Source of the DNA: a virus
DNA length: 37,599 bases
IMG/VR virus record: IMGVR_UViG_3300034284_000889
Coordinates: 1-37,599 of that record
Direction: 5' to 3' (one strand)
Positions 2-32,067 of this stretch are shown here, piece by piece (the stretch's first letter is position 1; every line of letters starts with the position of its first letter). A model generated the notes under the pieces. It saw nothing but the letters and a program-made list of their open reading frames with translations, made no database searches and was not told the DNA's origin. The position numbers and the translations under genes were made by a program.

Positions 2-976
2 GATTACGTTGAAGAAGAAGAAATGTGCGAATCATGTGGTGGAGAAATGAGAGAAGGTGAAATGTACGAAGGTGAAACTTGTGAATCATGTGGCGGAGAA
101 ATGACAGAAGGTGAATGTATGGAATGTAGTAATATGTATGAAGGAGAAGTAATGGAAAAATTATACGGTAACCAAAAAAGAATTGATAAGAACCACAATA
201 ATAAGATTGATAGAGAAGACTTCAAAATGTTAAGAGGTAAAAAAGAAGACGTTAATGAAAATGTATTCTATGAGTTAACAACTGATGTAAATGGTAAGAG
301 AGAAAAACTTTTATTTACTGAAGGTCAATTTGAAGAAATTATTGAAAACATTGTTTTAAAAGAAGAAGGTAAATTTAATAAAGGTAAAACACCAGCAGGA
401 TATGCTGAATATGAGAGATCTGTTAAAAAATCAAAAAAAGAAGGTGATGACTATATGAAAGATCTATCTGAAAAAATGAAAGATTATTTAAAAGACGGAT
501 CTAAAGGTAAATATGAAATGTCACCTAAACATTTCCCAAAAGGAAATGGTGAATTGGAAAAGATGGATAAAAAGGCTTATGTTGCTTCAGGAGCAATTGA
601 AGATTATATTGATAACTTCACTGCGGCTGGTTTAGAGAACTTAGATTACGATGAAATCCATCCTGATGAAGATTGGGTGACTGATAACGTTGAAGGGGCT
701 TCAAGAACAGGAAATAACCCTGAATGGGCAAACGCAGTTGAAACACCAAACAACAAGAAAAGAAACAAAATTAGAAAAGATAATTTATTGGCTAAGATTA
801 AACGTAAGGCTTACAATAAAGCACCTCAACCAATCTTTAAAGATCAAGCGGGTGAAAATGAAGGTGATAAAATCATGACTAAGTTAGAATCTATTGATGA
901 AAAGAAAAAACAAAAGATTAATGAGGATTTTACACGTATAATGGATTTAATGTCTTATAAGAAAAACACTCAATAA
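2..976 (+). CDS. EF-hand and CxxC-repeat protein, 5' partial
   Basis: The frame is open to the left edge, so the true start lies outside the window; 324 residues are visible. The N-terminal part carries an imperfect repeat of about 18 residues built on CESCGGEM followed by EGE, then CMEC, so there are three CxxC pairs that could bind metal. It is followed by a canonical-looking EF-hand loop, DKNHNNKIDRED, at about nt 185-220, which suggests calcium binding. The rest is highly charged and Lys/Glu rich, and the C terminus (INEDFTRIMDLMSYKKNTQ) resembles the tag helix seen at the N terminus of the 30571 protein. A virion or head-associated role is plausible but unproven. A strong terminator follows. 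Confidence 0.8.
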   Translation, partial: DYVEEEEMCESCGGEMREGEMYEGETCESCGGEMTEGECMECSNMYEGEVMEKLYGNQKRIDKNHNNKIDREDFKMLRGKKEDVNENVFYELTTDVNGKREKLLFTEGQFEEIIENIVLKEEGKFNKGKTPAGYAEYERSVKKSKKEGDDYMKDLSEKMKDYLKDGSKGKYEMSPKHFPKGNGELEKMDKKAYVASGAIEDYIDNFTAAGLENLDYDEIHPDEDWVTDNVEGASRTGNNPEWANAVETPNNKKRNKIRKDNLLAKIKRKAYNKAPQPIFKDQAGENEGDKIMTKLESIDEKKKQKINEDFTRIMDLMSYKKNTQ

Positions 977-5541: not shown

Positions 5542-7434
5542 ATGGAATTACTTAAGGTATTAACATCTGTCATAAAAGAAAACACAAACGGTAAACGTAT
5601 TGTAAATGAGGCAATGTCTGAAAAAGTCGTTAAATTTTTAATTGACAAATATAAACCAACAACTAAAGATACGGAAGCTCAAATTATAACGGTAATAAAT
5701 GCGTTTGATAAATATAAAAACGGATTACCTGAAGACCAAAGAGATATAACTAAATTATCTTACGGTGTGGTTAAAAATATTGTATTAGGTAAAGAGATCA
5801 AGAAACAGGAAAAAAATGTATTCAAGAAATACATGGAGGCTAATAAAGGGGCTGACAAAAATGCGGTTAAGATGGCATTACGTAAATTCTACGAGTTATA
5901 TCCTATTTTACCGGCTAATCAAAGAGATGTGAACAAAATGCCTTATTTGAAACTTACTGAGTTTTTACAGAGTAAGTTTAATACTATGTTAACTGCCGCG
6001 GCTCTTAAGAAATTTAAAGATGAAGGAGCTAATGTAACACCTGAACAATTAATTTATTATGTGTCAACATACTTGGATCTATATCATAGATTACCTGCGA
6101 CTTTACCACCATTGTTGTTCATGACTTTTGATGAACTTGAACATACATTGGATGGTATGGGAGATTTAACGGATGACATTAAAGATAAAAAGGATGATTA
6201 TACTGATATTGAAACAATATATGACGATGAAAATTTATTGATTTTTAAACCGAGTGGTAAAGAACAATGTATTAGATTGGCTAACGGAAGAAGTTGGTGT
6301 ATATCTAAATCAGGTGGTGGTAATATGTATTACAATTATCGTTTAGGTCACAATTTAACAATCTATTATGTAATTGATAAAGATAAACCATTTGGGGATC
6401 TTAACTATGCGGTTGTTATCTTAGTTGAACCTTATGGTGGTGGTAAGAGAATTGCTGATGGTCAAAATATGGCTGGTGGTTATTCAGGACACAAGAGAGA
6501 AGCTTGGACTACAATTGTAAGTAAAGTACCAAAGTTGAAAGGTAAAGAACATTTATTTGTTGCCGACCCACTATCTCAAGAGGAACAAAGAGAATTAAAT
6601 GACTACAAGAATACTACAATCAATAAAGATGCGATAAAAGAACTTGGAAGTGAACAAGCAGCGGAAATGTGGCTTGAGATTGCAAGTCCTGATTTAACGT
6701 ATAGAGGTAATGGTAATGAAATTTATAGTAACTTCACTGAGAACCTTAGACACAAATATTTAGGATTGGGAATGGACTTGACTGCGGAAATGATTAATAA
6801 TTCTGAACCTAGTGTATTAAAATATTACGCGGCAAGAAAACTTCAAGGATTAATGGAAAAAAGTTTAGGTCAATTGAATGATACTGACATTGCATTCATC
6901 AACAGTCCTATAATGAGAGAGAATAAGAAAAAATTAAAAGAAAAATTCTCAGGTCAATTAGGTGGAGTTAGTAATAGTGGTTATGTTGGATTAGAATATC
7001 CAAAAGATGATAACTCTAAGTATGTGGCATTATTTGGATTTGATGATTTCTTTGAACACATCCCAACTAACACAACTATGATCCAAATGGAAAATACAAG
7101 TAAAAGTCCAATTGCTTTGGATATACCAGAAAGTATTGGTAAATTAACCGAATTAAAAACATTGATTATTGATAATATGGTTAAATCAATTCCTGAGAGT
7201 ATTGGTAATTGTAGTAAATTGAAATTCATAAACTTACCTAATAACCCACAATTAGAAAGTATTCCGGAAGCGTTTGGTGAGTTATATTGTTTGAACTTCT
7301 TCTCAACAGAGAATTCAAATCCTAATATGAGAATACCTGCAAAATTAGAGGAATATATGACTGAGGATGAAGGGTTTTGGTTTATTAATTTCCCTCCTGA
7401 ATTGAAGAAACATTGTGGACCTATAAGATCTTAA
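5542..7434 (+). CDS. Tagged protein: helical repeats, WCIS domain and leucine-rich repeats
   Basis: 630 residues. The N terminus (LLKVLTSVIKEN, then RIVNE before AM) fits the tag shared by other putative head-packaged proteins here. Three helical repeats follow at about 50-205, each with a YxxxLP core (YKNGLPEDQRD, YPILPANQRD, YHRLPATLPP). The central domain (about 225-340) has RSWCIS at 250-255 and IYYVIDK, matching the KWCTA domain of the 29300 protein. The C terminus has leucine-rich repeats of the IPESIG type (about 520-600). The function of the WC domain is unknown to me; LRRs usually bind proteins. A TATTTATA motif precedes the start. I infer a virion protein acting on a host target. 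Confidence 0.8.
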   Translation: MELLKVLTSVIKENTNGKRIVNEAMSEKVVKFLIDKYKPTTKDTEAQIITVINAFDKYKNGLPEDQRDITKLSYGVVKNIVLGKEIKKQEKNVFKKYMEANKGADKNAVKMALRKFYELYPILPANQRDVNKMPYLKLTEFLQSKFNTMLTAAALKKFKDEGANVTPEQLIYYVSTYLDLYHRLPATLPPLLFMTFDELEHTLDGMGDLTDDIKDKKDDYTDIETIYDDENLLIFKPSGKEQCIRLANGRSWCISKSGGGNMYYNYRLGHNLTIYYVIDKDKPFGDLNYAVVILVEPYGGGKRIADGQNMAGGYSGHKREAWTTIVSKVPKLKGKEHLFVADPLSQEEQRELNDYKNTTINKDAIKELGSEQAAEMWLEIASPDLTYRGNGNEIYSNFTENLRHKYLGLGMDLTAEMINNSEPSVLKYYAARKLQGLMEKSLGQLNDTDIAFINSPIMRENKKKLKEKFSGQLGGVSNSGYVGLEYPKDDNSKYVALFGFDDFFEHIPTNTTMIQMENTSKSPIALDIPESIGKLTELKTLIIDNMVKSIPESIGNCSKLKFINLPNNPQLESIPEAFGELYCLNFFSTENSNPNMRIPAKLEEYMTEDEGFWFINFPPELKKHCGPIRS

Positions 7435-11678: not shown

Positions 11679-13214
11679 ATGAAAAAAGTTGTTAGAATTA
11701 ATGAGGGTGAATTAATTGGATTAATAAAGAATATTATTATTGAACAAGATGATAATGTTGAATATGAAGATTTCACTCCAGAAGAATATATGGATCTATT
11801 AAAGTCTGTTAACTATAAGGCACAGGCCATTCCTAAGTTTCCTGACTTTAGAGGTAAAAAAATAAGAGTAAATGGTAACTTATCCTTAATGGGTTTAAAA
11901 CAAATAACTAATTTGGGTGAGTTAATCGTAACTGGTAATTTAAATGTTCGTTCCTCAGGTATTGTAAGTATTGAGGGTATTACAGTTGGTGGTACTTTTA
12001 GTTATTGGGACACACCATATAGCATAGAACTTGAGAGAAGAAAAGAAATGGCTTTGAGACAAGAGGCGAAACAAAGACGAGAAGATGATGAGTGGAACTT
12101 AGATAATCCTGAAATTGATAAAGAAGGTATAATGGCAAATGTGGTATTTGAATATATGACCCAACAGGGAGATATTGGATATTTAACTGATTCAGAACGC
12201 GAAGAATTAAAAGAATTTGAAAAAAGAATGGAGGAACTTGAGGAAAGGATAGATAACGAGGAAGATCCTGAGGTTCTTGACGAATTGGATATGGAACGTA
12301 GTGATCTTCAAGATGATATAGATAGACTTAAAGGAAATGATAACGATGTGTATGATTTAATACCTGACGGTAAACATTACGATATGGATACATTTAGATC
12401 CGTACATGATGATAGTGGGGGTAATATTTATGCGGTTGGAACTGAACGTGATGCTGATAGCTCTGTGGAAGAGTATTATGAAGAAATGATAAACGATTTA
12501 AATAATTTTAGTAGAAGTACTTTATCGGACCATATTGATGGTGATGATGTTGCGGATTATTATGAAGATATGATTCGTGAATGGGTTACTGAAGATCCTG
12601 ACAATTATGGTGTTACTAAAGAAACTAGTCTCAGACAAGATAAAGAAATTGAACAATTAAATAACAAAAAAAGGTCTCTTGAGATAGAAACGTATTTGAT
12701 TAAAAATGGTGCTAGATCTCCTCTTATTGAGGAAGAGATTGAAAGCATGAAGTACTTTAAGTTTAAAGATTATATGGATAATTTATTAATTGTTGAATGG
12801 TCTGAAAATAAATGGCAAATTTACCAAAACGGTAAAAAAGTTGATGAAGTATACTATGAAGATGAGGATGAAGATGGTGAACATGAATCGGATAATGACT
12901 CAAGGATTGATGAAATTGAAAGTGAAATAGAAGACATTGATGTTGAAATACAAGATATAAAAGATTATCCTGATGGTGATTTAAATGATGATGAGGTTGA
13001 AGAAGCGGTTGATGATAAGTTACAAGAAATTAGAGATGACCCGGCAAGTTGGTTAAATGATATGGGTGATGAACTTGAAAATTTTGTTAATAAAAGATCA
13101 TTACTGGAAAGTTTAGTTAATGATGGTGATTATGGTTCAATAAATGGGTATGATGGTTCATATGATACAGATTTAGTTAACGATACAACTTTTGTTGTAA
13201 TGAGAATTGAATAA
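11679..13214 (+). CDS. Tagged acidic protein with beta-repeat and coiled coil
   Basis: 511 residues from ATG 11679; an in-frame ATG at 11601 would add 26 residues that include the promoter region and is rejected. The N terminus (VVRINEGELIGLIKN, then IIE before Q) fits the shared tag. Residues about 55-110 contain short beta repeats (GNLSLMGLKQITNLGELIVTG) like a small beta-helix. A long charged coiled coil (about 165-215) and very acidic segments follow. The C-terminal segment (NGYDGSYDTDLVND) resembles a small domain I associate with phage proteins but cannot name. A TATTTATT motif precedes the start. Inferred to be a packaged virion protein. Confidence 0.75.
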   Translation: MKKVVRINEGELIGLIKNIIIEQDDNVEYEDFTPEEYMDLLKSVNYKAQAIPKFPDFRGKKIRVNGNLSLMGLKQITNLGELIVTGNLNVRSSGIVSIEGITVGGTFSYWDTPYSIELERRKEMALRQEAKQRREDDEWNLDNPEIDKEGIMANVVFEYMTQQGDIGYLTDSEREELKEFEKRMEELEERIDNEEDPEVLDELDMERSDLQDDIDRLKGNDNDVYDLIPDGKHYDMDTFRSVHDDSGGNIYAVGTERDADSSVEEYYEEMINDLNNFSRSTLSDHIDGDDVADYYEDMIREWVTEDPDNYGVTKETSLRQDKEIEQLNNKKRSLEIETYLIKNGARSPLIEEEIESMKYFKFKDYMDNLLIVEWSENKWQIYQNGKKVDEVYYEDEDEDGEHESDNDSRIDEIESEIEDIDVEIQDIKDYPDGDLNDDEVEEAVDDKLQEIRDDPASWLNDMGDELENFVNKRSLLESLVNDGDYGSINGYDGSYDTDLVNDTTFVVMRIE

Positions 13215-21004: not shown

Positions 21005-23344
21005 ATGAAAAGAATTACAGATAGTTTATTAAAAAGAATTGTTAGACAAAGTCTAAATGAAAGTTATGGTTTGTTAAATGAGAGTTACGACACTGGTAAA
21101 GTAACAGTTGGTGATAAAACATATGATAATATTAAAATAGAGTTCAACCCATGTGTTGATGGTGGTTTTTGTATTGGGGCTGATGGTGCTAGTTACTGGC
21201 TAGCTAAAAATGCTCAAACAGAAATTGCAAGTATTAGTCGTAGTAATCTTGATTTAGCGGTAGATGAATTATCGAAAAAATGTAATACTTTAAAAATGGG
21301 TAAACCTCTAAGTTCAAATATTGAACAAGTAGTGGAGGATCTTATTACTCAGTACAGAGCGACAGATACGGTAGAGGATAAAGTTAGAAGTATAATTTAT
21401 CAGTTAGATTTCCCATCATGGTGTGCTACTGTAAAAAGAGGAGAGGACCTTGGATATGGTAATATATATAGAGCGTCGGTTGCTAATGTTGGATCAGATG
21501 ATTATTCTTATTATGTTGCTCAAGCTTCAATACATTCATTAACTAAGTCAATTGATTTAACAGAGGCTAAACGTGACGAATATTGGAAATCTGTTGGTGA
21601 TAGTATTGAAAATACTAAAAAAAGTGAAGAAACATTGAACGACACATTATTAGCAAATGCTAAAAAATGTGGATATGATACAATTGAGGCATATAGAGCG
21701 GGTAGTGATGGGGAAGCATGGAAATGTGTGGGTCGTAAATATACCCCTCATACTGGTGATGGAGAAATTGGTTCTTATCAAGTATCGTTTGAAGGTTATT
21801 ACTGTATAGACCCTAATTCTCCAAGACGTAATCCGGCATTAGTGAATAAACCGAAACAAATACCTGGAGGTGTTGGGTATCAATTAAACACAGGTAATCC
21901 TATTATTGATAAGTTTGTTTATGGTGTTGCAAAAGACCAAAGAGGTACTGATTACACAGATGTAGGGGTACAAATGGATAGTAATAAAGTTATAACTGAG
22001 TTTGATTGTAATGATAAAAAAATACAATTTTCACTATCAACTAATGCTTGGAGTTATGATGATATAGTACCATATATTAACCCTGAATATTTTAGTTGGG
22101 CAATTCCAGGACCGGAACAAAATAAAATAGTTTTAACTACAGATCCCGATTTTAATGATAATGGTAAAAGTGACAATAGTATCCAAGGTGCACCTAATCG
22201 TAATTTATTAGAAGATAGTGTAAGTAACAATAGAATCAGAGGTTTTAGACATAATTTATTAACTGAAGAACAAACTTTATGGATAGGTGCGGAAGACCCT
22301 GATGTTGGGTTGATACAAAAGGCATTAAAGTTAAGACCTGTTGATAACAAATTTGGAAAAGACACTCAAAAAGCGGTAATTAAATTCCAAACAACTGAAG
22401 GAGCTAAACTTCCAACACCATTAAGAACTGATGGAGTTGTTGATGATGCAACTTTAGAGGCAATAATAGGTACTGAAGCCTTTAACGCACGGAATGTTTT
22501 ACCCGCATCTGCAACAGAATTACCCGCATCTGCAACAGAATACACAAGACCTTTAACGCTTAAAAGTACGGGTCCTGATGTTGTTGCAATACAAACAAAA
22601 TTAGGTATTAGTACTAAAGGTGGTTATGGTCCTGAAACGCAAAAAGCGGTATTAGCTTTCCAACAAAAAGATACTAACTTGGAAGATACGGGTGATGTTG
22701 ATGAGTTAACATTTAAAAAAATTATGGCTTATGATGCTGCATCACCTATAAAGTATTCGGGTAGAAAACATAATTATACGACAAAGGATGAAGGTAAATG
22801 GATTAAAGTATCTCCTAATACTAGTGATACACAACTAAGTGATAATAATGGGTACTTTAAAATTTTAAATGTTTTAGATGAATATAATGTAGTGATTGAT
22901 GCTGAATATAAAAACGTTGGTGGTGGTGGATCAACACAAAAAGTTTTATTTGGTGAAGACGCAAAAGAGGGTACTGACCAGGTTATTAGAGGTGGTGGTT
23001 CAGGTGGTTCAGGTGGTACAGGTGGTACAGGTGGTACAGGTGGTACAGGTGGTAGAGGTAGAAGAAGTGGAGTAGTAGGTGGTGGTGGAGGAGGAGGAGG
23101 TAATGTAGATCCTGAAAGACAAAGACAAAGAGATTTACGTAAAAAAGAAATGTGTGATGCTTTAAGACAAGTAAAACAATATTTAAATAACACTAAAGAT
23201 GCGGGATTAACCGTCGATTGTAAAAGAGATCAAAATACAAGAAATCAAATTATGATGGCTCTTACAGGTGGATCTTCAACTGGAGGGGGAGGAGCTGAAG
23301 AACCAAAGGTATCAACACCGGGAGGAAATGTAAGAATATATTAA
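21005..23344 (+). CDS. Tagged large protein with peptidoglycan-binding domains and Gly-rich linker
   Basis: 779 residues. The N terminus (RITDSLLKRIVRQSLNES, then LLNE before S) fits the tag. An unassigned domain (about 35-180) is followed by an AKKCG...WKC motif (about 216-243) shared with the 30571 protein. Two PG_binding_1-type domains follow (IQKALKLRPVDNKFGKDTQ and IQTKLGISTKGGYGPETQ), separated by a tandem duplicated PASATEL linker. After a Gly/Ser/Thr repeat and poly-Gly tract, a third degenerate domain occurs (QVKQYLNNTKDAGLTVDC). It shares the promoter with 20789 and has its own terminator. I infer a virion murein-binding protein. Confidence 0.82.
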   Translation: MKRITDSLLKRIVRQSLNESYGLLNESYDTGKVTVGDKTYDNIKIEFNPCVDGGFCIGADGASYWLAKNAQTEIASISRSNLDLAVDELSKKCNTLKMGKPLSSNIEQVVEDLITQYRATDTVEDKVRSIIYQLDFPSWCATVKRGEDLGYGNIYRASVANVGSDDYSYYVAQASIHSLTKSIDLTEAKRDEYWKSVGDSIENTKKSEETLNDTLLANAKKCGYDTIEAYRAGSDGEAWKCVGRKYTPHTGDGEIGSYQVSFEGYYCIDPNSPRRNPALVNKPKQIPGGVGYQLNTGNPIIDKFVYGVAKDQRGTDYTDVGVQMDSNKVITEFDCNDKKIQFSLSTNAWSYDDIVPYINPEYFSWAIPGPEQNKIVLTTDPDFNDNGKSDNSIQGAPNRNLLEDSVSNNRIRGFRHNLLTEEQTLWIGAEDPDVGLIQKALKLRPVDNKFGKDTQKAVIKFQTTEGAKLPTPLRTDGVVDDATLEAIIGTEAFNARNVLPASATELPASATEYTRPLTLKSTGPDVVAIQTKLGISTKGGYGPETQKAVLAFQQKDTNLEDTGDVDELTFKKIMAYDAASPIKYSGRKHNYTTKDEGKWIKVSPNTSDTQLSDNNGYFKILNVLDEYNVVIDAEYKNVGGGGSTQKVLFGEDAKEGTDQVIRGGGSGGSGGTGGTGGTGGTGGRGRRSGVVGGGGGGGGNVDPERQRQRDLRKKEMCDALRQVKQYLNNTKDAGLTVDCKRDQNTRNQIMMALTGGSSTGGGGAEEPKVSTPGGNVRIY
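22501..22542 (+). repeat. 21-nt tandem direct duplication
   Basis: Two adjacent copies of ACCCGCATCTGCAACAGAAT plus one base encode a repeated PASATEL linker between two peptidoglycan-binding domains; the copies are nearly identical at the DNA level, so the duplication is recent. Confidence 0.8.
22991..23101 (+). repeat. GGTGGTWCA-type 9-nt repeats and GGN tract
   Basis: Tandem GGTGGTTCA and GGTGGTACA units encode Gly-Gly-Ser/Thr repeats, then GGT/GGA runs encode poly-Gly. It is a flexible linker and a possible site of repeat-length change. Confidence 0.85.
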
Positions 23345-24739: not shown

Positions 24740-25975
24740 ATGAAGATTATATTAACAGAAACACAATACAAAATACTTAACGAAGCGTTAGGGGTTCCTG
24801 AAGGTATTTTAGATACTGCATCAGATTTATATGAAATAGTTGAAAATTTAATTAAGGGAATTGATTATAAAAAAGACGAATATATTTTTAACCAAAGTGT
24901 TGATTTAACTATTTCGGATTATCAGATTGATTCACTTGATCTTCATGTTAATGTTGAGCATATTCCAGGTTATGATGGGAAGGCTGAACTTGCATCTATG
25001 GCTATGGGTCAAAATTTTAATTATAATAGAAAAATACAATTAAAAGTTCAGTTATTAGATACTGAAATAGAATTACATATAACATTTGTCGTTGGTAATG
25101 AATGGGAACCTGAAGATTTATATGAAAGATTTACACAAGATCGTGTTGAAACTGAATCCACTTTGGCTCATGAGTTAAAACATAAGTACGACAAACAGAA
25201 AAAACAATTTGATTTAATTGGTAAAGACGCTCAATACCAAACTTACTCTAAAGGAAATTTAAGGTTTGGAATACCTGAGATTGACCATAAGTTTATGAGG
25301 TACAATTATTTTATGCAAGTTGCCGAAAGTTTAGTTAGACCAACTGAACTTGCGTCAAGAATGAGACAAAGGAAAATTTTAAAATCTAAGTTTTTAAATT
25401 TCCTTAAAGAAGACAGATCATTTAAAGAGATTTTAGAAATTAGGGATTATAGTTTTGAAAAGTTAATTGATGGTTTAAAAGAACAAATGGATAGAGTGGA
25501 TGCGTTAATTAAACATATTGGACAATATAATGAAAATTTAACTGAAGACGAAAAGATTAAAATAACATTAAAATTAGTTTATGTGAACTTGGTGAATAAT
25601 AACGTTGAGTTATTTGATCAAATGACATCAACACCTTTAGACAGATATGGTATTAGGGCTTTATTTAATAATGCATTTGGTGGTGGATTACTTCCGCAAG
25701 ATGAAGAAGAAAAAAACTTACAAAAAGTAAGACAAAAATTCATCAACTATTTGACAAAGTATGATGATGATCCTATTATGTTCTTTAAAGATATATGTAA
25801 ACAATTATCTGACGACGCAAACAAAATTATTAAAAAACTAGGTAAACTTTACGCAATGGCAGAAGACGATCAACCAATGAATGAATCTATAATCAATTGG
25901 GAACTTCATCAACAACTGATGGAAAAAAAATACGGTAAAAGAAAAATAGAAACCGAATTTAAATTCAAAAAATAG
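24740..25975 (+). CDS. Tagged HExxH zincin-like metallopeptidase candidate
   Basis: 411 residues. The N terminus (MKIILTETQYKILNE before A) is a short copy of the shared tag. ESTLAHELKHKYD contains HELKH at 144-148, an HExxH zinc site; a downstream Glu in AESLVRPTE may be the third ligand, as in gluzincins. The C-terminal half is helical. If active, it would cleave proteins. With the tag and TATTTATA promoter it is a candidate packaged protease that could act on virion or host proteins. Confidence 0.72.
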   Translation: MKIILTETQYKILNEALGVPEGILDTASDLYEIVENLIKGIDYKKDEYIFNQSVDLTISDYQIDSLDLHVNVEHIPGYDGKAELASMAMGQNFNYNRKIQLKVQLLDTEIELHITFVVGNEWEPEDLYERFTQDRVETESTLAHELKHKYDKQKKQFDLIGKDAQYQTYSKGNLRFGIPEIDHKFMRYNYFMQVAESLVRPTELASRMRQRKILKSKFLNFLKEDRSFKEILEIRDYSFEKLIDGLKEQMDRVDALIKHIGQYNENLTEDEKIKITLKLVYVNLVNNNVELFDQMTSTPLDRYGIRALFNNAFGGGLLPQDEEEKNLQKVRQKFINYLTKYDDDPIMFFKDICKQLSDDANKIIKKLGKLYAMAEDDQPMNESIINWELHQQLMEKKYGKRKIETEFKFKK

Positions 25976-29110: not shown

Positions 29111-29310
29111 TGAAACAGGAGTTAAACACGTTTGCATTCTTTTCAAAGAACCTTTTATTTTACGCCATTATGATATGGATTGAAAAAGATTACAATCCAC
29201 TTAATTGGTGGTTATTCAGTGGATTCTTTCAAATTGTAATAACAATAGTTTTTGAATTATATATACTTGGAACATCATTAGAAGAAAAAAATATAGAAAA
29301 TGGGAATTAA
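29110..29310 (+). CDS. Small membrane protein
   Basis: 66 residues with two hydrophobic segments (about 8-23, FAFFSKNLLFYAIMIW, and 34-53, WLFSGFFQIVITIVFELYIL). No signal cleavage site. It is coupled to both neighbours (1-base overlap upstream, 11-base overlap downstream), so it is made with the WCTA protein. Could be a holin-like or membrane anchor protein, but there is no specific evidence. Confidence 0.6.
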   Translation: MKQELNTFAFFSKNLLFYAIMIWIEKDYNPLNWWLFSGFFQIVITIVFELYILGTSLEEKNIENGN

Positions 29311-30295
29311 AAAAATTAAAAAAGAAAACGAATTAGTTAATATTAGTTTAATTGATTTGATGGGTAAACTAGATACTAGTAGTACTAAAAAATACACTCA
29401 ATTTTTGGTTAAAATACTTATAAAAAGTTTTAACAACGATTCGAAATATGTACTTAAAGAAGCGTCACCAAGAGAAAGAAAACTTGATGAGGTTTTAGGT
29501 GATAATAGTTTTGATAGTTGGATGACAAAGAGATTGATTGGACACCTGTATGGTTGGGATGAGATGAATTTATTTGTTGAGTTTTGTGACTATATGGAGA
29601 GAGGTTTAACTAATGAAAAAGACATTAGTAAATACGATAGTTGGGATATGGTCTCAAGTGAGGTGTATATGGCTAAGAATCGTGATCTATTTAAAAAGGC
29701 AAAAAAAGAAGTAAAAGTTGTTTATGAGGATGATCAATATTTATGTATTAAACCATTAACATATGAAGCATCTGTATCTTATGGGTATCAAACAAAATGG
29801 TGTACTGCTTCAGTTCATGACCCTAGTTACTTTTATAATCACTCAAGAGATGGAGTACTTGTATATGTAATTGATAAAATAAATAATTTTAAATTTGGGT
29901 TTTTCCATGGTAAACAACAAATTCATATCTACGATCAAAAAGATGATAGAATAGATTCAATGGAGACAGGACTTCCGTTTGAATTATTACATAAGTTGTT
30001 TAGTGAAATAAAATCTGATGTTAAAGATAAAAATTTTAACTATAAGTTATTTAGTGAAAGTGAATTGGAAAAGTTAAAAAAATATCGTGGGTATGAGGAG
30101 CCGGAAGAAGAAATGGTTGGTCGTGAAGAACCAATACCGGTAGAAATGATGGGGGAGGGGATAATAAATCATGTACAAGAAAGAACCAATGACCTGGGCA
30201 TTATTCAAGATGAAGGGTTAGAATATTTAAGACAAAGATTACAGACATTAAGACCAAGAAACCCTATTGAGGTTGGTGATGATTTACCAATTTAA
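29300..30295 (+). CDS. WCTA-domain protein
   Basis: 331 residues. The central domain (about 138-240) contains YEDDQYLCIKPLTYEA, KWCTAS at 166-171, FYNHSRDGVLVYVIDK and KFGFFHGKQQIHIYD. It resembles the WCIS domain of the 5542 protein in order and spacing (DDEN/FKP, WCIS, YYNY, YVIDK). The N-terminal part is helical; the C-terminal part is acidic. No tag is evident here. I do not know the domain's function; conserved Trp-Cys and a DK end could form a binding or catalytic site. Confidence 0.72.
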   Translation: MGIKKIKKENELVNISLIDLMGKLDTSSTKKYTQFLVKILIKSFNNDSKYVLKEASPRERKLDEVLGDNSFDSWMTKRLIGHLYGWDEMNLFVEFCDYMERGLTNEKDISKYDSWDMVSSEVYMAKNRDLFKKAKKEVKVVYEDDQYLCIKPLTYEASVSYGYQTKWCTASVHDPSYFYNHSRDGVLVYVIDKINNFKFGFFHGKQQIHIYDQKDDRIDSMETGLPFELLHKLFSEIKSDVKDKNFNYKLFSESELEKLKKYRGYEEPEEEMVGREEPIPVEMMGEGIINHVQERTNDLGIIQDEGLEYLRQRLQTLRPRNPIEVGDDLPI

Positions 30296-30570: not shown

Positions 30571-32067
30571 ATGAAAGATAAAAAACTTATACTTGAGGAG
30601 TTAAATAGGATTAAAAACCTTATGGGTTACGATCGTTCTAAGACATTAAATGAACAAGAAGGTTATGAAGGTTATGCTGATATATTAAAAAGTTTAGATA
30701 GTGATTCCGGTACTAATATTTATGGGACTTCAGATGGTAAACCAAGAAGATTTAGGACACCAGATGGTGATATTTTTGATTCTGCCGTTGATAAAGGAAA
30801 AACACCTAAAGGTTCAAAATGGATTAATAAACCTGAAAAGGTTATTGATGCGGTAAAAGATGTTGCGTCTAATAAAAACGTTCAAACTGCAACAAACACT
30901 GTTGGAGGAGGTAAAGTAGTAAAATCAGTCACAGGTATAGGAAAAAATGCTGCGTCAAGTGCTGAAGTTGCAGGAGCCGAATCTGCGGTAGGTGCTGAAG
31001 TTGCGGGAGCGGAAGCTGCGGTAGGAGCGGAAGCTGCGGTAGGAGCAGAAGCTGCGGCGGTAGGTGCGGAAACTGCGGCGGTAGTAGGAGGAGCGGAAAC
31101 CGCGGCAGTAGTAGGAGGAGCGGAAGCTGCGGCGGTGGTAGGAGGAGCGGAAGCTGCGGCGGTGGTAGGTACTGAGGTCGCGGTAGGGGCAGGAGCGGCC
31201 GCTGCGGTTGGTGGTGGTGAAGCGGCAGCGGCTGCGGCTACTTTTTTAGGTTTAGGTCCTGTTGGTTGGGCAATAATTGGTGTTGCGAGTATCGCGGCTT
31301 TAGGTGTTTGGGCGTACACAAAAGACGATAAAATGGGTATGGTTGAAAAATTATTTGATATTTGTCAATCAAGTAGTGACAAGGATAAGTGGAAAAGATA
31401 TATGAGTGATACAGAGGTTAAAAAGAATTCAGGGATATTATATCATGCCATGGAAGGTTTGGGTACAGATGAAGAAGCGGTTTACGGTGTATTCAAATCA
31501 TTTAAAAGTCCTGGTGATTTTTGTGCGGTAGGTGAAAAATATGAAAATACATTTGGAGAATCTTTGTTAGAGGCGTTAAATGGTGATTTTGATTATGGTT
31601 GGGAAGGCATTGCTGAACCATTAGTTGATATGACTAAAAAATACGCACAAACTGAATCTGAAGAATATTGTAAAGATCACGTTGAAGAATGTGCTGAGAA
31701 TTTAAAAAAATATTGTAAAAAAATACCTAACGATCCTAAATGTAACGTTTTACAATCAGAAGATTTATTAGTAAAGGCTAAAAAATGTGGTCATAAATCT
31801 GTGGAAGATTATAAAAACTCTGATTGGAAATGTGATCCAAGTTCATCAGGTGGTGGTAATGACGGGACAGGAAAAAGTGAGTATGTGAATTGTAATGGTG
31901 AATATCATAAAGGATGTAAAGGACCAAGAATAGTGCAATTACAAAAATGTTTAGGTGTTGGTGTTGATGGTAAGTTCGGAGAAGAAACGGAAAAGGCATT
32001 AGAAGAAAAAACAAAGAACAAAACCATCAATGACGAAGATGTTAAGAAAATATGTGGTAAAAAGTAA
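30571..32067 (+). CDS. Tagged Ala-rich membrane protein with annexin-like and peptidoglycan-binding domains
   Basis: 498 residues. The N terminus (KLILEELNRIKNLMG, then TLNE before Q) is the shared tag. Residues about 129-222 are Ala/Gly/Val/Glu repeats (AEAAAVVGGA units); 223-247 is a likely transmembrane helix (GPVGWAIIGVASIAALGVWA). Residues about 291-345 contain MEGLGTDEEAVYGVFKS and a following helix pattern like one annexin repeat, whose GxGTDE loop binds calcium and lipid. An AKKCG...WKC motif matches the 21005 protein, and the C terminus is a PG_binding_1-type domain (IVQLQKCLGVGVDGKFG). I infer a packaged protein that meets the cell envelope on entry. Confidence 0.78.
   Translation: MKDKKLILEELNRIKNLMGYDRSKTLNEQEGYEGYADILKSLDSDSGTNIYGTSDGKPRRFRTPDGDIFDSAVDKGKTPKGSKWINKPEKVIDAVKDVASNKNVQTATNTVGGGKVVKSVTGIGKNAASSAEVAGAESAVGAEVAGAEAAVGAEAAVGAEAAAVGAETAAVVGGAETAAVVGGAEAAAVVGGAEAAAVVGTEVAVGAGAAAAVGGGEAAAAAATFLGLGPVGWAIIGVASIAALGVWAYTKDDKMGMVEKLFDICQSSSDKDKWKRYMSDTEVKKNSGILYHAMEGLGTDEEAVYGVFKSFKSPGDFCAVGEKYENTFGESLLEALNGDFDYGWEGIAEPLVDMTKKYAQTESEEYCKDHVEECAENLKKYCKKIPNDPKCNVLQSEDLLVKAKKCGHKSVEDYKNSDWKCDPSSSGGGNDGTGKSEYVNCNGEYHKGCKGPRIVQLQKCLGVGVDGKFGEETEKALEEKTKNKTINDEDVKKICGKK
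30955..31237 (+). repeat. GC-rich repeat region encoding AEAAAVVGGA units
   Basis: Imperfect tandem units of about 15-33 nt (such as GGAGCGGAAGCTGCGG) form a local GC-rich island in an AT-rich genome. The unit count probably varies. Confidence 0.85.

Follow-up and report, generated by a model that had tools for sequence, protein, structure and literature searches.

A leucine-rich repeat protein of a phage and its place in a viral WC-domain family with capsid-targeting-like N-termini

We analysed a 37.6-kb stretch of DNA (the window, 37,599 nucleotides) that makes up virus record IMGVR_UViG_3300034284_000889, and found that its gene at 5542..7434 (+ strand, ATG start, 630 aa) encodes an N-terminal tag, helical repeats, a WC domain, a helical linker and a C-terminal leucine-rich repeat (LRR) region. 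In our reading, to which we give somewhat better than an even chance, this is a modular ejection protein from the inside of the head of a large, T4-type phage. Its N-terminus would be a capsid-targeting sequence (CTS) at which a gp21-type protease cuts, and the protein would leave the head together with the DNA and bind a partner through its LRR. What the earlier note had claimed for one unusual protein thereby becomes a claim on a large family, still without a name, for which a delivery route is probable. If true, hundreds of unannotated phage proteins would be tied to one delivery route, sequences could serve to list what uncultured jumbo phages probably inject, and a viral domain without a Pfam model could be tested in a cultured system (PA5oct, Paride or SCTP-2). 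Paride is reported to kill dormant P. aeruginosa (PMC10761892).

Domain layout and predicted structure

The open reading frame at 5542-7434 and the parts first described in it are real, as judged by the ORF call, the orthologs, the profiles and the AF2 model. All parts lie on the + strand. The N-terminal tag (residues 1-23; 5542..5610) has the sequence MELLKVLTSVIKE/NTNGKRIVNE/A. It is followed by three helical repeats of about 61 residues (24-85, 86-147 and 148-212) with a short linker (5611..6186), delineated by shuffles and AF2; by the WC domain (residues 216-345; 6187..6576), located by hhalign and HMM comparison to the WC profile; and by a helical linker region with no family assigned (residues 346-479; 6577..6978), in which AF2 predicted helices with a block pLDDT of 71-91. 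The C-terminal LRR region (residues 480-630; 6979..7431) was identified through Pfam, NCBIfam and a structure match, and carries IPESIG-type repeats at about residues 524-600.

Structure prediction had been proposed as a check of this layout, and the AF2 model of the 630-aa protein, built from a 40-row alignment, showed the helical repeats (residues 27-205), an alpha/beta domain (223-345), helices (346-470) and an LRR (480-620), preceded by a low-confidence tag helix (pLDDT <50 at residues 1-3 and 7-24). Because the mean pLDDT was 70.9 and the pTM 0.47, the relative domain placement is unreliable, and it is the single domains that are readable. YxxxLP-type motifs read from the sequence are spaced by 61 residues (55-63, 116-124 and 177-185), and the order of helices is similar across the three units of the model. 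Repeat units 1 and 2 were related beyond chance (score reached by 2/5000 shuffles), the relation between units 2 and 3 was marginal (336/5000), and that between units 1 and 3 was not significant (3411/5000). Since pLDDT also falls below 50 at residues 167-219, the third of the three YxxxLP repeats claimed earlier is weak by both sequence and model, while the first two hold. A PADLOC match to PDC-M35B at residues 350-404 (E 0.003) was judged coincidental, as was one to LmuB at residues 444-510 of L082 (E 2.3e-7).

A family of viral WC-domain proteins

The WCIS motif noticed earlier occupies residues 252-255, encoded at window 6295-6306. When six WC sequences were used for a scan, at least 600 matching stretches were listed, 486 of them encoding relatives, which gives at least 486 viral-contig loci; the best 80 of these were kept, and 36 segments from the retained loci were built into a WC profile without window sequences. 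This profile matched residues 170-308 of the window protein by hhalign (probability 97.9, E 5.3e-13), and the corresponding HMM matched window 5965-6432 (E 4.8e-12). Profile comparison, the only route by which the relationship was reached, thus places the LRR protein in the WC family (phrog_17056-type). In the 36 members the invariant columns are YG, WC, F, Y and D. The window domain keeps W252-C253 and Y266, has Y263 at the invariant Phe and L246-A247 in place of Tyr-Gly, and sets N309 on the Asp column (D306 is near). The window clade is therefore a divergent WC member without the invariant Tyr-Gly and Asp, and if WC is an enzyme elsewhere, this loss could mean altered or lost activity here.

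Sixteen records, picked as known WC carriers, gave 1 to 8 WC HMM matches each; two of them, G015 and G016, are probably one lineage because many of their matches have equal frame length. Phages often carry several WC paralogs, with exchangeable C-termini (LRR, DUF4116, DUF6745, GH19). No Pfam model was common to the 42 WC members scanned at E 0.001: DUF6745 was found in three, LRR_14 in two, and GH19, TPR_9 and FlxA in one each. DUF4116 was detected in two of the four WC ORFs scanned from Salicola phage SCTP-2 (E 3.1e-17 in one; E 1.9e-5, slightly short of the cut-off, in the other). The same phage that carries the LRR protein encodes a second WC-domain protein at 29300..30295 (+ strand, 331 aa; phrog_17056 E 2.2e-12; WC HMM E 1.4e-38), in which we found no LRR match in Pfam and no obvious CTS.

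Two further arrangements were observed among the relatives. L080/L236 (G010 86207-88474) holds a CTS-like tag, WC and a GH19 chitinase/lysozyme-like domain (E 5.1e-13) in one polypeptide. At L097 and L189/L191 (contig G013 and near relatives), adjoining WC paralogs are followed by WYLNGKLHREDGPA-type repeats (in L091, DUF6745 is over its cut-off), which by eye seem to differ in number between the paralogs.

Two scans of cellular genomes returned 13 and 2 pattern matches and no WC relatives, each scan depending on one short pattern that divergent copies can escape. In a viral-protein structure library, the WC model matched phage proteins including the PA5oct structural protein (rank 4) and, by names alone, Marseillevirus LCMAC201/202 proteins, one of which is named an ankyrin repeat protein. 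A Foldseek search of the PDB gave nothing with E <0.6, which does not exclude a known fold, and the WC profiles compared with sequences of solved structures reached at best E 0.025 (profile including window rows) and 0.042, in unrelated molecules. A GNAT or polo-box fold scored Z of just 4.1-5.6 and was not taken as homology. Because these matches are unconvincing and a link to PcfJ (see below) is weak, no catalytic activity can be named for WC. Literature searches found no publication on the WC domain, and one may still exist; as far as the libraries and literature searched go, the domain and its exchangeable modules are undescribed.

Orthologs and selection on the window gene

A search for the same domain order in related phages, as the earlier note had suggested, found it kept in 16 close viral loci (89-100% identity) and in three loci with 38% identity over residues 1-625 (L022-L024); L026 (864 aa) shares with the window protein the N-terminus and WC domain only. 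L022-L024 all have the same score and are therefore probably one lineage, from which L022 was read (694 aa, domain order as in the window protein). L025 is a fragment ending at its contig end, with 71% identity over residues 1-119, and one locus shows 17% identity over residues 224-399. A tblastn search of phage records with the window protein gave nothing at E 0.1.

Selection on the gene is purifying, with dN/dS of 0.097 (12 sequences, 64/66 pairs used). For this calculation and its alignment we took 12 of the 17 close sequences (the 16 loci and the window), omitting L002, L006, L007, L009 and L016 by choice; pairs with dS <=0.05 or saturated were dropped, so that 55-64 of 66 pairs were left. 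By part, dN/dS was 0.074 in the repeats, 0.085 in WC, 0.150 in the linker and 0.069 in the LRR, and 0.436 in the tag, a value that rests on just 23 codons. Per-column variability was not significantly higher in the tag (7/23) than elsewhere (115/607; p 0.18). The strong purifying selection on the LRR gives no hint of an arms race on the surface that would bind a partner.

The LRR part and recurrence of the WC-LRR combination

LRRs can act as binding modules. The IPESIG-type LRRs described earlier were recovered by Pfam LRR_14 at residues 527-592 (E 4.4e-5, under the curated cut-off), by LRR stretches of the NCBIfam models XopAE, XopL and XopAC (E between 9.5e-8 and 4.6e-5, with scores that fall far short of the cut-offs) and by structure comparison of the modelled C-terminus, for which LRRC8A was the best match (Z 8.1, rmsd 3.1 A, 106 residues) and the sole chain of 993 with Z >=8. 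LRR_14 was likewise under the curated cut-off in the 38%-identical ortholog L022 (E 1.9e-8). The best structural match of the full model among viral proteins was a phage 'Leucine-rich repeat' protein (E 2.4e-11, TMq 0.20). An effector that binds a host protein is a plausible reading of these sequence features.

The earlier description of this domain combination as unusual holds only in part, since WC proteins are frequent and WC also occurs together with LRR or LRR-like repeats in other phage ORFs. By eye, such repeats follow WC in L093 (contig G014) and form the C-termini of four WC ORFs of 494-550 aa in G016 (L099 among them). Among these four, one has support from Pfam through LRR_4 (8.6e-5, below cut-off) and through LRR_14, which shares a 552-codon frame with WC (E 3.6e-4 in G016 and 5.4e-4 in G015). 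A second has weak support through Recep_L (0.0035), and the remaining two gave no Pfam match at 0.01. Since WC and LRR are joined in the window type, in L093 and in G015/G016, the combination seems to have arisen, or persisted, more than once.

Capsid-targeting-like N-termini

As described in PMC9026906, T4 gp21 cuts after Glu at L/I-X-E, and the 10-19-residue propeptides of the T4 internal proteins (IPs) are capsid-targeting sequences. The window tag has a T4-type L/I-X-E site at I11-K12-E13 and a second Glu site at E23, which precedes a conserved A-M-S/A-E-K-V and reads V-N-E in the window protein. Across the window clade this site is V-x-E; L022 has L-S-E there and L026 has L-T-E. All three ortholog groups conserve the N-terminus, including a Glu-Ala site ahead of the same EKV helix. 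The tag fits a short N-terminal propeptide ending in L/I-X-E, a motif that is weak by itself.

Many other WC proteins open with a short peptide that ends in a T4-gp21-like cleavage motif, like the T4 capsid-targeting sequences; examples are MDFLKLIQE-G, MRVTEFIAE-G, MKFSEIILE-S and MSLSFLIE-G. After removal of sequences with identical first letters, the motif [LIVMF]xE[GASNQ], which was chosen only after reading the WC N-termini, was found in residues 6-32 of 43/58 WC proteins versus 22/178 other ORFs of the same loci, and after clustering at 50% identity in 15/26 WC versus 14/119 control clusters (p 1.9e-6). It is absent from 11 of the 26 WC clusters, and at least two of the 15 positive ones (L111, 286 aa, and L134) are by eye of an untagged MGxKxLK type. 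The strict L/I-X-E occurred within the same residues in 22/26 WC versus 48/119 control clusters (p 3e-5), and also in 13/26 internal windows of the WC proteins themselves. Seven WC HMM matches were found in SCTP-2, and 7/7 of these ORFs start with a peptide holding L-F-E or L-L-E. The WC protein of CcrBL9 has L/I-X-E at residue 20, though this genome shows no gp21 match. Some motif-carrying control ORFs also look like tagged proteins. T-even internal proteins are described in PMC3012670 as diverse defence proteins with only the CTS in common.

Protease, capsid and further tag-like ORFs in the phage background

Among eight ortholog records, a gp21-type protease together with a gp23-type capsid was found in one, the L026 contig (G009). 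The window record and six of the other seven ortholog records yielded neither gene, but as all of them are fragments, absence does not follow from this. In 20 further WC contigs, the protease was over cut-off in 6/20 and the capsid in 5/20, and three of four WC-carrying isolate genomes (PA5oct, Paride and SCTP-2) had the protease over cut-off. Both genes are also present in G023 (287 kb), which has blastp matches to 19/58 window ORFs.

Tag-like starts were then counted with patterns written after the sequences had been read, and compared with shuffled sequences (maximum of 200 shuffles). The window has 8/58 such ORFs versus a shuffled mean of 2.2 (maximum 6), and G023 has 39/355 versus 11.3 (20), with 16 of the 39 falling at 111-140 kb. 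Counts also exceeded all shuffles in G007 (12/156 versus 4.5, maximum 11), G009 (12/141 versus 4.0, maximum 10), G001 (12/102 versus 3.5, maximum 8) and G004 (11/104 versus 3.8, maximum 10); the sole genome within its shuffles was G003 (7/92 versus 2.9, maximum 8). Given this excess and the kinship with G023, the window phage may be part of a lineage with a large set of packaged, tagged proteins.

G023 contains at about 111000-140000 (loci L163-L177) a block of ORFs that start with MKIIITESQLKxII..E or MNLQENIQRIKxMMGL..E; these are two shared N-terminal tag classes on seemingly unrelated proteins, which probably form a packaged cargo set. In the window, another tagged ORF at 11679..13214 (+ strand) starts with MKKVVRINEGELIGLIKNIIIEQ, and its C-terminal half resembles by eye that of tagged WC proteins such as L083. 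Tag-like N-termini are also found at window 21005-23344, with two stretches of peptidoglycan-binding domain (E 3.4e-12); at 24740-25975, with a weak peptidase M76 match (E 0.038) and a HELKH motif; and at 30571-32067, with an Ala/Gly/Val-rich low-complexity segment and an annexin-like match below cut-off (E 2.3e-4). The acidic protein at window 23-976, which has relatives at G007 117277-118752 and G023 234029-235510, carries by eye tag-like segments in mid-protein (e.g. LLFTEGQFEEIIENIVLKEEG) and a C-terminal NExxRIMxLMSY segment, and looks as if several tagged pieces had been strung together for protease cutting. Bacteroidota-type promoters were not significantly enriched in the window (5 versus 3.1 expected).

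Virion evidence and alternative readings

The idea that the tag leads the protein into the virion gained support through relatives, namely the enrichment of CTS-like N-termini among WC proteins and an annotation in Pseudomonas phage PA5oct. In this phage the WC protein EST35_0205 (QCG76086.1), which starts with MKLFEVFTLYE-D, is recorded in GenBank as 'structural protein' with the note 'ESI-MS/MS'. The same note stands on 9/14 complete CDS around it, and its homolog in Paride adjoins the terminase gene. For the WC family, though not for its LRR member in the window, we regard this as moderate evidence. The MIJ3 study names four proteins identified by MS: gp144, gp142, gp386 and gp411.

These surroundings of EST35_0205 and of its Paride homolog would also suit a part of the prohead core or scaffold, which would be targeted and cleaved as T4 core proteins are and serve head size or maturation with no host task. 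Strong purifying selection outside the tag points the same way, and tag and protease logic fit core proteins equally well (PMC9026906). We nevertheless hold this reading to be unlikely, since the multiple paralogs (up to 8 WC matches per contig) and the changing C-terminal modules, GH19 among them, look like cargo.

A similarly low probability attaches to a protein that is made once infection has begun and works in the cytoplasm, in host takeover or regulation, and whose N-terminal helix would be no packaging signal. The second WC protein of the window and several others seem untagged, and the gene neighbours of the LRR protein appear non-structural by eye (DnaJ, methylase and thioredoxin-like genes, no head cluster). 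Moreover, EST35_0207 and EST35_0210 of PA5oct are likewise annotated 'structural protein, ESI-MS/MS', and their counterparts Paride_0004 and Paride_0007 are annotated as a single-strand DNA binding protein and a UvsX-like recombinase (genes of PA5oct, L160, and Paride, L161, were paired by order and length only); the MS list behind the virion location may therefore hold carried-over, non-structural proteins. However, the conservation of the N-terminus with its Glu-Ala site before the EKV helix in three ortholog groups, as well as the tag enrichment across the WC family, argues against this reading. It is very improbable that the protein serves in the tail or in adsorption, with its LRR attaching to the host surface as LRRs in general could, given that the window protein had no tail family match, that its LRR is not diversified (dN/dS 0.069) and that its WC relatives bear head-type tags.

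Proposed mode of action

As the simplest account, we infer processing, packaging and ejection of the window protein, its partner and any activity as follows. As a CTS-tagged internal head protein, it would be brought into the prohead core by its N-terminal peptide, acting like a T4 capsid-targeting sequence, and the gp21-type prohead protease would cut after Glu13 (I-K-E) or Glu23. The mature protein would be packaged and would enter the host along with the DNA. In the host, the LRR would bind a partner from the bacterium (or the phage), which the WC domain, bearing the invariant Trp-Cys, would then act on or block.

A wider proposal, tentative and rather doubtful at present, is that WC forms the constant core of a virus-only, virion-delivered effector family. 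Its members would combine a tag for packaging and an adaptor made of helices with the WC 'warhead' and with repeat modules that can be exchanged (LRR, DUF4116, DUF6745-like and perhaps ankyrin in Marseillevirus-like giant viruses), and large phages would deliver sets of paralogs aimed at different partners. Under this proposal, and with the same reserve, the paralog sets might be compared in logic to bacterial type III effector sets.

Comparison with known systems

The Xanthomonas effectors XopL, XopAE and XopAC resemble the window protein in LRR type alone (XopL LRR Z 6.7), and their matches, in the LRR part alone, reached 22-31 bits versus cut-offs of 450-600. PcfJ (PF14284) shows by eye a His-Cys-Val / Trp-Cys-Thr-like core followed by an aromatic pattern similar to that of WC. 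In the structure search, PcfJ-like proteins come after the WC family, at rank 21 (E 3.5e-3) and at ranks 26, 27, 33 and 49. PF14284 matches four other WC domains with E of 2.8e-4 to 1.6e-3 per genome, but their 14-17 bits fall short of its 25-bit cut-off. The window protein itself gave no PcfJ match at E <= 1 and none at the 25-bit cut-off of PF14284. When the WC profile was compared by hhalign with two small PcfJ alignments, the probability was 0.1, and homology was kept as a lead only; the link between PcfJ and WC is suggestive only. In G023, the protein encoded at 199818-201773 (L187) passes the Pfam cut-off for PcfJ (E 3.1e-13), and this phage also encodes several WC proteins.

The WC domain is held by two families of unknown function, phrog_17056 and phrog_28193, both matched by SCTP-2 gp37; unlike for that protein, neither is among the matches listed for the window LRR protein. 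EST35_0205 of PA5oct and its homologs (Paride, MIJ3 and others) share with the window protein a tag-like N-terminus, a helical part and WC, but they have no Pfam LRR match and a different C-terminal half.

A CTS-tagged internal protein is a kind already known from T4. The matches listed for the window protein include no IP or Alt family. The window protein is larger and modular, with WC and LRR, and its packaging and ejection are predicted, whereas the T4 proteins are CTS-tagged, processed by gp21 and ejected. Like the window protein, IPI, IPII, IPIII and Alt have a short N-terminal peptide with L/I-X-E; phages with a gp21-type protease and a gp23-type capsid are found among the window relatives, and in T4, as in the WC family, varied cargo stands behind a similar tag.
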